Part shown: one piece after another, positions 52,165 to 57,821 of the stretch
Numbering within the stretch: position 1 is the first letter of the stretch
Layout: every line of letters begins with the position of its first letter
Assembly (NCBI GenBank): GCA_021228405.1
Contig: JAJQRF010000002.1
Span: 806,001 to 870,000 of the forward strand
Origin: Pyrinomonadaceae bacterium
GTDB lineage: Bacteria > Acidobacteriota > Blastocatellia > Pyrinomonadales > Pyrinomonadaceae
Length of the DNA stretch: 64,000 nucleotides
Direction: 5' to 3'
Position numbers and translations under genes: made by a program
Notes under the pieces: model-generated
Told to the model about the DNA's origin: nothing
Databases searched by the model: none
The model's input: only the letters and a program-made list of their open reading frames with translations

Positions 52165-54714
52165 TTATTTCGTCTGCGTGGTGACATCGGACGCATTTTG
52201 TAACGCTGTGTTTACATCACTGACGGCAATTTTATATCCACAACCCTCTTTTTGGCAATAACGCACAGTGCCTTCTTTTTTCGTCGTTTTTTCAAAGGTC
52301 AGCGGCGCGTTGCAATTCGGACACGGTTCAGCCAACGGTTTATCCCAGTAAACCTCGTCGCATTTCGGATAATTCGTGCACCCGTAAAAGACTTTTCCGC
52401 GTTTCGATTTCTTGACCGCAATTTCGCCTTTTCCGCATTTCGGGCAAGTAATTCCGGTGGTTTCGCGTTTGATGTAATCGCATTTCGGATAATTCGAGCA
52501 CGAAATAAATTCGCCGAAACGTCCTTGTCTGATGACGAGCTTCGCGCCGTCTTTCGGACATATTTCGTCCAATTCGACCGGCGGCGCAACGGCAACGGTG
52601 GCACCTGATTTTTTGTCGATCTTGCGAATATTTTTACATTCGGGATAGCCCGTGCAACCGTAAAACGCCCCGAAACGACCTTTTTTCAAAGCCATCTCGC
52701 GCCCGCAAAGCTCGCACGGCGGAACTTCCGTTTCCTCGGATTTGTTTTCTGCGCCTTCAGCCGCCGCTTCGCCGCTTGCCGAGGCTTTTTTGCTTCCGAC
52801 CTCTCTGGTAGTTTTGCATTCGGGATAATTTTGACAGGCAAGAAACTGTCCGAAACGTCCGAATTTGATAACCATCGGCGAACCGCAGGTTTGACAAACT
52901 TCGTCGGTCGCAATGACGGCTTTCTTTTTGTCCTTCAAACCTTCTTCGGCATTTTTCAGATCGACCGAAAACTTATCGTAGAAATTGCGCAGTGCATCGC
53001 GCCAATTTATCTTTCCTTCTTCGATGTTGTCGAGTTCGTCTTCCATCCGCGCCGTGTAGGTCGGGTTGAAAAGATCGGTAAAACCTGCCACCAGAACATC
53101 GTTAACGGTCGTGCCGAGCGCGGTCGGATGAAAACGTCCTTCGAGTTTTTCGACGTATTCGCGGTCCTGGATCGTCGTCATAATCGCCGCGTAAGTCGAT
53201 GGACGACCGATGCCTTTTTCTTCCAGAGCCTTGACCAGAGTCGCTTCCGTAAAGCGCGGCGGCGGTTCGGTGAAATGCTGTTCGGGCGTGATCTTGTTCA
53301 GCTTTAACTGCTCGCCCTTTTCCACTTTCGGCAAACTGCGTTCTTCGTCGTCGTCGTCCGAACCTTCTTCAACTTTTTCGTCGCGTCCTTCCTGATAGAC
53401 CTTCAAAAATCCGTCGAATTTCTGCACCGAACCCGTTGCGCGGAAGGTAAAGCGTCCGGCTTTGATGTCGATGGTCGTCTGGTCGAAGATCGCCGGATTC
53501 ATCTGCGAAGCGACGAATCTCTGCCAGATCAGGCGATAAAGACGGTATTCGTCGTTTGAGAGGTAAGATTTGACGCTTTCAGGCGAACGGTTCACGTCCG
53601 TCGGGCGAATCGCTTCGTGCGCGTCCTGTGCGCCGCCCTTCGATTTGTAGTGAATCGGTTTTTCGGGAAGATAATTCTGCCCGTAATTTCCGCCGATAAA
53701 TCCGCGCACGTCGTTCAAAGCCGTGTCCGAAACGCGGGTCGAATCCGAACGCATATAGGTTATCAAACCGACCGCGCCTTCGCTTCCGAGTTCAACGCCT
53801 TCGTATAATTTCTGCGCGGTGGACATTGTTTTCTTGACCGAAAATCCTAATTTGCGCGATGCCTCCTGCTGTAATTTTGAAGTGATGAAAGGCGGAACGG
53901 GATTGCGTTTGCGTTCTTTGGTCGTGACCGAATCGACGATGAAATTTTCCTTTTCGGCTTCGGTAACAATATCTTTCGCCGTTTTTTCGTCCTTGATGTG
54001 CGTTTCGTTCTTTTTCAAATCCTGATCGAAACCGCTCGTTTTGACCGTTAAATCTTCGATCTTATAAAGACGCGAATTAAAATTGGGCGGAAGTTTTGCG
54101 GCAAGATTTGCCGTGATCGTCCAATATTCGGTTTTGACAAAGGCTTCGATCTCGCGTTCGCGGTCAACGACGAGGCGCACGGCGACCGTCTGCACACGTC
54201 CTGCGCTCAATTTTCCGCCGATGTTTTTCCAAAGAATCGGCGAAACTTTGTAGCCGACCAATCTGTCTAAAATTCGGCGTGCCTGTTGTGCGTCAACTAA
54301 ATCCTTATTGACCTGTTTCGGGTGGTTAAAGGCTTCCTTGATCGCGTTTTTCGTGATTTCATTGAACATCACGCGGAAAACTTCCTTTTTCGGTTTTTTC
54401 GGCACGATCTCTTCCGCCAGATGCTGACAGATGGCTTCGCCTTCGCGGTCGGGGTCGGCGGCGAGAAAGATCGCTTCGGCTTCTTTTGCCGCTTTTTTCA
54501 AATCGGAGACGACCTTTTTATTATTTCTTTTCTTTGCGTCGGGAATGACTTCATAAGTCGGCTCAAAATTATTTTCGATGTCCACGCCCAAACCTTTGGA
54601 CGGCAAATCCTTGATATGCCCGACCGAAGCGAGCACTTTATAGTCGCTTCCGAGATATTTATTGATGGTTTTCGCCTTCGCGGGCGATTCGACGATTACT
54701 AAATTCTTTGCCAT
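52165..54714 (-). CDS. topA: DNA topoisomerase I
   Basis: Type IA topoisomerase of 849 residues that relaxes negative supercoils. The N-terminal toprim domain begins LVIVESPAKAKTINKYLG. The active-site tyrosine is Y320 in LITYMRSDST, one residue off E. coli Y319. The C-terminus has five Cys4-type zinc ribbons, for example CQTCGSP ... CQNYPEC and CELCGRE ... CTGYPEC, more than the three of E. coli. Zinc-ribbon number varies between lineages. The gene starts 15 bases after no other gene; its upstream region holds a multi-hairpin element. Confidence 0.96.
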   Translation of the reverse strand: MAKNLVIVESPAKAKTINKYLGSDYKVLASVGHIKDLPSKGLGVDIENNFEPTYEVIPDAKKRNNKKVVSDLKKAAKEAEAIFLAADPDREGEAICQHLAEEIVPKKPKKEVFRVMFNEITKNAIKEAFNHPKQVNKDLVDAQQARRILDRLVGYKVSPILWKNIGGKLSAGRVQTVAVRLVVDREREIEAFVKTEYWTITANLAAKLPPNFNSRLYKIEDLTVKTSGFDQDLKKNETHIKDEKTAKDIVTEAEKENFIVDSVTTKERKRNPVPPFITSKLQQEASRKLGFSVKKTMSTAQKLYEGVELGSEGAVGLITYMRSDSTRVSDTALNDVRGFIGGNYGQNYLPEKPIHYKSKGGAQDAHEAIRPTDVNRSPESVKSYLSNDEYRLYRLIWQRFVASQMNPAIFDQTTIDIKAGRFTFRATGSVQKFDGFLKVYQEGRDEKVEEGSDDDDEERSLPKVEKGEQLKLNKITPEQHFTEPPPRFTEATLVKALEEKGIGRPSTYAAIMTTIQDREYVEKLEGRFHPTALGTTVNDVLVAGFTDLFNPTYTARMEDELDNIEEGKINWRDALRNFYDKFSVDLKNAEEGLKDKKKAVIATDEVCQTCGSPMVIKFGRFGQFLACQNYPECKTTREVGSKKASASGEAAAEGAENKSEETEVPPCELCGREMALKKGRFGAFYGCTGYPECKNIRKIDKKSGATVAVAPPVELDEICPKDGAKLVIRQGRFGEFISCSNYPKCDYIKRETTGITCPKCGKGEIAVKKSKRGKVFYGCTNYPKCDEVYWDKPLAEPCPNCNAPLTFEKTTKKEGTVRYCQKEGCGYKIAVSDVNTALQNASDVTTQTK

Positions 54715-54908
54715 TATTTGAAAAAAATATGTCAGACGTAAAAACGTGCTGACATTCTGACTTCTAACACCTTTAATTGTTTCGTGTCAATCCGCGATTT
54801 ACACCTTAGCCAATTTGACGTGCATTTCCAAACTCTCGATTCGTGTTTCAGATGATTAATTAATAACTTGCGTTCGCCGCAAGATTGGAGCGTGAAAAAC
54901 CCACAAAA

Positions 54909-55089
54909 AGTCATCGAAGATGACGACAGCGTTTAGCCCCGCACGTCAGTGCGGGGAACAGTTTCTATCGAAGATAGGGGCGGAAATTCTATCGCCCGTT
55001 TCACAGGCTTCGGCTGTGTGTCGAATCTCGTCCACGGGGTGCACCGCCGCTTCACCCGTGGCTGCATTCTTTCCTCATCTTCGATGACT
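54909..55089. repeat. Multi-hairpin element closed by a 15-bp inverted repeat
   Basis: Outer arms 54909-54923 and 55075-55089 are perfect reverse complements (CATCGAAGATG). Inside are CCCCGCAC-GTCA-GTGCGGGG (54937-54956), CTATC-GAA-GATAG, GGGCG...CGCCC, CACAG-GCTTCGG-CTGTG and CCACGGGGTG...CACCCGTGG hairpins in series. The whole reads as one cloverleaf-like fold. Similar repeat elements with these hairpin words occur in many copies in other bacterial genomes. It lies upstream of topA on the opposite side from its start. Confidence 0.75.
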
Positions 55090-55210
55090 GATTGCGGCGA
55101 ACCGATCTTGAAATATAAAGAAAACAAATTTTTAGAGAAGCACCTTATCATTACTTTCGCAAATCGTCGGTTATTTTCCGCCTGACAATTGTTCTTTTAT
55201 ATCAGATTAT

Positions 55211-55398
55211 TGTTTTTCTCTATCAATCAACTGTTTTTCTGTATCTGTCACCTGTTTTTTTGTATCTGTTAGCTGTTTTTTCCTATCTGTCAGTTGTTTT
55301 ACTGTATCTGTCGTCTGTTTTTCTCATCTGTTTACTGTTTTTCCCTATCTGTCATCCGGTTTTTCGTATCTGTCACTTGTTTTTCTGCATCTGTCGGC
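55211..55398. repeat. Degenerate 21-bp tandem repeat array, nine units
   Basis: Units start with TGTTTTT and follow TGTTTTTCTGTATCTGTCAnC, at 55211, 55232, 55253, 55274, 55295, 55316, 55336, 55357 and 55378. Eight are 21 bases and one is 20. The array runs into the 3' end of the YkgJ-like gene (stop at 55373) and encodes its last residues. Confidence 0.88.
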
Positions 55399-56128
55399 GG
55401 TTTTCGACGAGTTGTGCGGCTTCTTCAAGCGTCAAAGCGTCAAATTCAAACTGCCGCCACGTTTCGAGTTTCGGATCGAAATTGTAAATCGTCTTTTTCG
55501 ATTCATCCTTTAAAGAAGCGACGATGTCCAGCGTTCCCGCATCGGTTTCGACAAATTTCACACTGTCGATCATTTCCGAACTTTCGCCGCGTTGCGGTCG
55601 GGCTTCGAGTTTTTCGAGCGCGGCGACGGTTTCTTTTCGCGGCAGATACGGCTCCAGACCCGAAATGCGGCGCAGGGCGTGGCATTTATCGCTTCCTGCG
55701 TCGAAATCGCGGCACATTTGCGGACGCGTTTCGTAGATTTTGCAGAGAATCTTTCCATTGTCGTTGGTCAATTGCTGACAGGCGAAAGTTTCGCCGTTGC
55801 GCCGCAGGTAGCGGTCAACGACGATCTCGCCGTTTTTTCCTTCAACTGTGATGTCCCAGTAATCTTCGGGCGCGATGTCTTCGTGCGGGCGAACGCCGAC
55901 GCACGGCATCATTTCACAGCAAAGACCGCACGTTATACAATCGGGAATCGGCGCGTCGGGCGGCGTGACGACATTTTTCGCGCGTTTGACCGTCAAAAGT
56001 TTGGTCGGAATCTCGGGCGGCAAACGGGTAAACCAAATTTCTTCATACATCTTATAGATCATCGGGTAAAATTCGTTTTCGGGAATGGTCGGTTGCCTGG
56101 TGATCTGAACAAAATCAGTTTTTTCCAT
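55373..56128 (-). CDS. YkgJ-like cysteine-cluster protein
   Basis: Protein of 251 residues with the Fe-S or zinc cysteine cluster of the YkgJ/UPF0153 family: CITCGLCC (near 63-70), then CQQL, CKIY and RPQMCRDF (near 127-151). Function in the family is unknown; metal binding is likely. The last eight or so residues (RRQMQKNK) are encoded by the 21-bp tandem array. It begins 4 bases after the dprA stop, so the two are probably co-transcribed. Confidence 0.84.
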   Translation of the reverse strand: MEKTDFVQITRQPTIPENEFYPMIYKMYEEIWFTRLPPEIPTKLLTVKRAKNVVTPPDAPIPDCITCGLCCEMMPCVGVRPHEDIAPEDYWDITVEGKNGEIVVDRYLRRNGETFACQQLTNDNGKILCKIYETRPQMCRDFDAGSDKCHALRRISGLEPYLPRKETVAALEKLEARPQRGESSEMIDSVKFVETDAGTLDIVASLKDESKKTIYNFDPKLETWRQFEFDALTLEEAAQLVENRRQMQKNK

Positions 56129-57722: not shown

Positions 57723-57821
57723 TGGCGGAGGCGTGTCGGAGTCGAACCGACCCGAGTTTGCTCTCACAAACTCACAAACGGTTTTGAAGACCGCGCCCGT
57801 CACCGGACAAGATGCGCCTCC
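57723..57821 (-). tRNA. selC: Selenocysteine tRNA, anticodon TCA
   Basis: A 99-base minus-strand tRNA with CCA encoded (57723-57725). The anticodon loop is CTTCAAA within GCGGT/ACCGT stems, giving TCA, which reads UGA. The extra-long variable arm (TTGTGAGTTTGTGAG region), T-loop TTCGACT in GTCGG/CCGAC, and G first base with CGCCTCC acceptor match SelC. The eighth acceptor pair is C-A rather than Watson-Crick. Presence implies that the organism makes selenoproteins; selA, selB and selD are not in the window. Confidence 0.93.

Follow-up and report, generated by a model that had tools for sequence, protein, structure and literature searches.

REP palindromes and their inverted pairs, REPINs, are known together with TnpA-REP (RAYT) transposases from E. 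coli, Pseudomonas, and Stenotrophomonas. The palindrome carries a four-base foot ending in TAG, the palindromes form inverted pairs, the transposase gene lies between the same palindromes, and compensatory changes keep the structure. In the passages of PMC8266576 that deal with TnpA-REP enzymes, their substrates are single stranded, their action is strand specific, and the GTAG foot is used. The sequence family described here shares the general features of these systems. It differs in having an NTAG rather than a strict GTAG foot, in an extra GNA-loop mini-hairpin before the foot, and in its transposases, which carry a Y---Q--HH motif instead of the Y---NP motif of class 2.

The transposases are instead like those of TnpA-Y1 subclass 1.2, which the corresponding sections of Quentin et al. 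(2018, PMC6006769) describe as proteins of about 150 amino acids with the motifs [DN]H[VIL]H, WQ, and Y---Q--HH. The same sections tabulate the subclass as "REP: no" and place it mostly in Cyanobacteria and Bacteroidetes. In contrast, most of the subclass 1.2 loci that we analyzed carry palindromes, and their record titles point to many more phyla. Our family also resembles the TIRYT repeats (as outlined in PMC3733652) and the class 3 Y1 structures (as outlined in PMC6006769), which likewise occur next to genes for Y1 transposases, also in Acidobacteria; by its description there, class 3 differs in its CnGA foot and YV--EQ-type motif.

Rfam already catalogues this sequence with its hairpins, taken from the other strand, as an RNA, Acido-Lenti-1 (RF01687), which we read here as a DNA element. 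Group II introns are neighbours of Acido-Lenti-1. The portions of the literature that mention these ncRNAs present them as little known and as suggested regulators of protease genes in Tannerella (2026, PMC13298647), and list them, in multiple copies, among the ncRNAs of Vibrio anguillarum (2023, PMC10059132). Within the literature covered, which was mostly open rather than subscription and in excerpt, we found no publication linking Acido-Lenti-1 to a transposase.

Here, we describe one copy of this family in a 64,000-nucleotide stretch of a Pyrinomonadaceae genome (the window). We consider it very likely that this copy is a diverged, gene-less REPIN that has single-stranded DNA as its working form and depends on a Y1 transposase of subclass 1.2.

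Structure of the element

Fold prediction for positions 54909 to 55089 of the window (positive strand, 181 bp) yielded a closed stem with five inner hairpins, as a sequence-only reading of the window had proposed. The terminal stem consists of 15 perfect pairs (AGTCATCGAAGATGA / TCATCTTCGATGACT). That reading had also judged the fold too regular for chance, and comparison with shuffled sequences agreed. The minimum free energy of the positive-strand RNA was -81.4 kcal/mol, whereas the shuffles averaged -56.8 (z = -5.15), and the negative-strand RNA gave a z-score of -6.11. With DNA parameters, the z-scores of the two strands were -5.80 and -6.09, so that both strands fell between -5.2 and -6.1. 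None of 200 shuffles matched the fold, whichever strand and parameter set (RNA or DNA) was used.

We read the whole element (54909 to 55089) as a diverged inverted pair of REPs. The left REP (54909 to 54956, with the REP strand being the positive one) comprises a mini-hairpin of 6 pairs with a GAA loop found by DNA folding (54910 to 54924), a TTAG foot apparent in the sequence (54933 to 54936), and a main hairpin of 8 pairs with a GTCA loop supported by the folds (54937 to 54956), all on the positive strand. An inner mini-hairpin of 5 pairs, also with a GAA loop, is predicted on the same strand at 54965 to 54977. The right REP (55031 to 55089, negative strand) is diverged; sequences set side by side and DNA folds point to a mini-hairpin, a GCAG foot, and a large-loop hairpin. 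Set against the GT[AG]G foot by which REPs and REPINs are recognized, the feet of the element are TTAG on the left and GCAG on the right.

Copies in the source genome and in relatives

The left REP is the reverse complement of Acido-Lenti-1: the Rfam model matched 54909 to 54956 on the negative strand with 37.6 bits, just over its gathering score of 37. We then used a covariance model, R1, built from copies in relatives. Sixty-three copies (59 distinct) were taken, and 48 entered alignment A2 after 11 near-identical copies from one relative, G029, were dropped. Removal of 4 copies from the source genome and of 11 whose loops or stems differed in length left 33 in alignment A3, from which R1 was made. 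In this held-out test, R1 found the left end of the element at 45.4 bits, and the right REP gave no R1 match at E = 10.

The sequence-only reading had offered a repeat as one guess, and the genome contains more than a single copy. A second element on a different contig (L008, 200 bp, C18:346449-346655) is 70% identical, and its ends correspond to the two ends of the window element in the opposite order; its left end is similar to the right REP in sequence and in DNA folds. Across the 5.7-Mb assembly, six places contain the 14-mer of the mini-hairpin, including the two ends of the window element; the reversed control occurs at none. At E ≤ 1, the genome contained six Acido-Lenti-1 matches, one of them over the cut-off, and ten R1 matches. 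It also contained nine Y1_Tnp genes, one with an in-frame stop. Six of the ten R1 matches were 61 to 356 bp from a Y1_Tnp gene. Of the top four Acido-Lenti-1 matches, three were likewise close to such a gene, at 61 to 321 bp. Given the ten R1 matches and the one interrupted gene in nine, the family looks old in this genome, and the window copy may therefore no longer move.

Acido-Lenti-1 matches at E ≤ 0.01 were found in 49 of 60 genomes. In this set, which includes several incomplete assemblies, 41 genomes had both such a match and a Y1_Tnp gene (E ≤ 1e-8), 8 had only the match, 4 only the gene, and 7 neither. One relative, G010, had 20 matches and no Y1 gene. G029 had at least 144 matches, with no more than 150 candidates scored, and two of the five Y1 genes listed for it had no match within 12 kb. 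These matches formed 37 neighbour pairs less than 400 bp apart, 36 of which were inverted, in one sense; among the matches listed, the inverted pairs spanned 181 to 322 bp. Thus, the inverted doublet by which REPs and REPINs are defined is present in 36 of the 37 pairs and in the two ends of the window element. The edges of the latter agree with those of the G029 pairs, AG...CT in most of the 11 sequences listed, and G029 elements contain inner mini-hairpins similar to the one in the window.

Comparisons between relatives gave no clear-cut empty site. At one site (L248 of G050), both flanks had matches in G046, but these enclosed another stretch of about the same length, and no orthologous site spanning the element at L123 of G029 was found in six other genomes of its genus. 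Arrays at places shared by G050 and G054 differ in copy number, which fits amplification without proving a mechanism. In another relative (L098 and L140, G017:C57), palindromes recur every 257 bp in direct orientation in an array behind a transposase gene.

On the strand opposite to that in Rfam, the mini-hairpin of a copy is followed by a linker with NTAG at its end and then by a GC-rich hairpin. Among the best 150 matches, 141 of them distinct, the NTAG foot was found in 116 of the distinct copies and GTAG in 52. The mini-hairpin loop was GNA in 105 of the 118 distinct copies with a three-base loop. According to Yoshizawa et al. (1997), as cited in PMC11352879, GNA loops give extraordinarily stable DNA mini-hairpins; in our family, they lie on the REP strand. 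G-T pairs filled 16 of 1,829 cells in the 141 distinct copies; with no RNA family run as a yardstick, this rarity is only suggestive of DNA.

Compensatory changes among the copies, which the sequence-only reading had named as a check together with a covariance search and a copy count, were abundant. All 13 pairs changed on both sides, with 422 double-change cells compared to 110 after shuffling, in an alignment fitted to the model and of copies whose recovery with structural models favors good pairing. In the MAFFT alignment of A3, 10 of 13 pairs changed on both sides. These changes fit a DNA hairpin and an RNA hairpin equally well.

Association with Y1 transposase genes

We evaluated the association with transposases in the best 80 of 577 loci, which were fetched by transposase protein alone. 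R1 matched at E < 0.001 in 68 of these 80 loci. A palindrome was located within 300 bp of the transposase gene in 66 loci, and in 43 loci inverted palindromes were present on both sides of it. Of 192 R1 matches in total, 167 were within 300 bp of the gene and 4 were beyond 700 bp; on each side, the median distance to the nearest match was about 60 bp. The 80 loci contain no exact copy of any of the 33 training sequences. One training copy (L045) is close to a gene of this kind, and two of the test loci (L181 and L217) overlap loci examined earlier.

The 12 loci with no match at E < 0.001 were L156, L160, L174, L178, L183, L191, L195, L210, L212, L215, L221, and L230; some of them contained weaker R1 matches, up to E = 0.1. 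Two of 11 further transposase loci, L103 and L104, also had no R1 match at this threshold, and at L101 palindromes were present, though the tyrosine motif there is without HH. As a control, we searched 18 other Y1_Tnp loci (L076 to L093, the top Pfam scorers), none of which had an R1 match at E < 0.001; a tyrosine motif, without HH, was seen in 9 of these and the patterns matched none of the other 9, so that the subclass is established for only half of the control.

Rfam's own model scored over its cut-off in 12 of 20 loci taken in order (L154 to L173) and, among 20 chosen loci, on either side of a gene from Lentisphaeria (L216). Across these 40 loci, RF01687 was the only family to reach an Rfam gathering score, and group II introns did not. 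By record title, the matched loci come from Acidobacteria, Planctomycetes, Verrucomicrobia, Lentisphaeria, Bacteroidetes, and Deltaproteobacteria, and also from Methylobacter, Nitrospirae, Chloroflexi, Zixibacteria, Hydrogenedentota, and Sumerlaeota. Most are metagenome bins; the records of Planctomycetes bacterium Pan216, Aeoliella, Gelidibacter, Geotalea, and Roseibacillus do not carry such a title. Among the fetched loci, titles naming isolates include Geotalea toluenoxydans and Aeoliella straminimaris.

The Y---Q--HH signature of subclass 1.2 was found in 79 of the 80 transposases. The HUH and Y---Q--HH residues H55, H57, Y115, Q119, H122, and H123 were invariant in 19 sequences. In a profile search of solved structures, IS608 and ISDra2-type transposases were closest (E values of 1e-13 to 1e-16). 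NCBIfam names these proteins IS200/IS605 transposases. The protein of one locus, L068, scored 25.7 bits with the canonical RAYT model NF047646, below the cut-off of 80.

Interpretation and alternatives

Taken together, these data make it likely that Acido-Lenti-1 is a single-stranded DNA REP of TnpA-Y1 subclass 1.2, spread over many phyla and built as a two-hairpin unit, with the window copy as a diverged REPIN. The putative recognition unit in this reading is the GNA mini-hairpin plus the NTAG-footed hairpin. When the element strand is exposed, for example during replication, both ends would fold. A subclass 1.2 Y1 (HUH) transposase, encoded elsewhere and flanked by the same palindromes, would bind hairpin and foot; its tyrosine would cut, and the strand would then be joined to a new place. 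The fold, the copies, the geometry of the inverted pairs, the compensatory changes, the palindromes beside transposase genes, and the foot and loop motifs are observed, whereas binding, cutting, movement, and the lack of a transcript are what we infer. The Rfam family would accordingly be a reverse complement of the REP rather than a small RNA.

The catalogued alternative is that Acido-Lenti-1 is a true small RNA family, transcribed here from the negative strand, whose two hairpins act as RNA. Rfam gives RF01687 the type "Gene; sRNA", the window exceeds its cut-off, the family is marked as probable RNA ("y") where it appears in Weinberg et al. (2010), and the compensatory changes would suit an RNA. 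However, the geometry of the inverted pairs is near constant and copies in opposite orientations flank transposase genes. Neither feature would be expected of an independent RNA gene. The GNA loops on the strand opposite to Rfam's and, more tentatively, the few G-T pairs also speak against a small RNA, as does the number of promoter-like sites (two in 721 bp versus 1.2 in shuffles). We regard a small RNA as very improbable. The sequence-only reading had listed a non-coding RNA among its guesses, and this part agrees with the Rfam label but runs against the inverted-pair and transposase-flank context. Its other guess, a recombination site, came close: the element is best read as a putative substrate of a strand-transferring HUH transposase.

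A different view of the same association would make the element a MITE, in which the two ends of an ordinary IS200/IS605 insertion sequence persist in degenerate form, with no REP system involved. The NCBIfam name of the transposases, their closest solved structures, and the lack of genes in the elements are consistent with it. It is harder to reconcile with the unequal copy numbers (up to 9 Y1 genes among the matches listed as opposed to the at least 144 palindromes in G029), with clustered, inverted palindromes on both sides of the gene and their NTAG foot, and with the description of subclass 1.2 by Quentin et al. (PMC6006769) as being without IS properties. We consider this origin quite improbable. 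Least probable is a chance or local hairpin-rich spacer, such as a cluster of terminators between topA and the neighbouring CxxCxxCC gene. The spacer does contain three terminator-like sites, compared to 0.8 in shuffles, and a tandem array adjoins the element, but the shuffles never folded as well, a second copy lies elsewhere, and both Rfam and R1 recognize a family. The family match refutes this view as a complete account, and termination might occur as a by-product.

If the REP reading is true, what is catalogued as a family of small RNAs is a DNA substrate for transposition, and annotations that rely on Acido-Lenti-1 need to be changed. Subclass 1.2, described as having no REP, would gain a substrate, and its role could be tested directly with oligonucleotides.

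Genomic setting

The element adjoins topA, as had been noted from the sequence. This gene (52165 to 54714, negative strand; Pfam Topoisom_bac, E = 2.4e-130) lies outside the element, which is 194 bp upstream of its start codon at 54714. The element sits in the 658-bp spacer between topA and a gene for a CxxCxxCC protein (55373 to 56128, negative strand; PF03692, E = 2.3e-08). An R1 search at the topA loci of 23 relatives gave no match at E = 0.01 in 22 of them and one weak match (20.3 bits) in the remaining one. Thus, topA seems irrelevant to the element. In G013, the sole one of the 23 relatives with a CxxCxxCC gene found beside topA, the order dprA, CxxCxxCC gene, topA is kept with a spacer of 26 bp versus 658 bp in the window. 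This short spacer shows the absence of the element, not its insertion.

A retron msr/msd and an attC site were also considered; for the retron, inspection by eye found no reverse transcriptase among the open reading frames beside the element. The element is enclosed by an outer inverted repeat about 11 bp long (54867 to 54883 and about 55091 to 55102; GTTCGCCGCAA / TTGCGGCGAAC), whose left copy also forms a terminator-like hairpin. The tandem array in the same spacer (55211 to 55395) consists of about 8.9 copies of a 21-bp unit, TGTTTTTCTGTATCTGTCACC. A 12-copy array of a similar unit is found on contig C9 (L002, 140 to 389), near a transposase gene with palindromes on both sides. Further along the window, a selenocysteine tRNA gene is predicted on the negative strand at 57723 to 57821 (Rfam, 69.9 bits; ARAGORN), and a gene for a protein of the 23S rRNA-intervening-sequence type (PF05635; 57263 to 57670, negative strand) lies between dprA and this tRNA gene.
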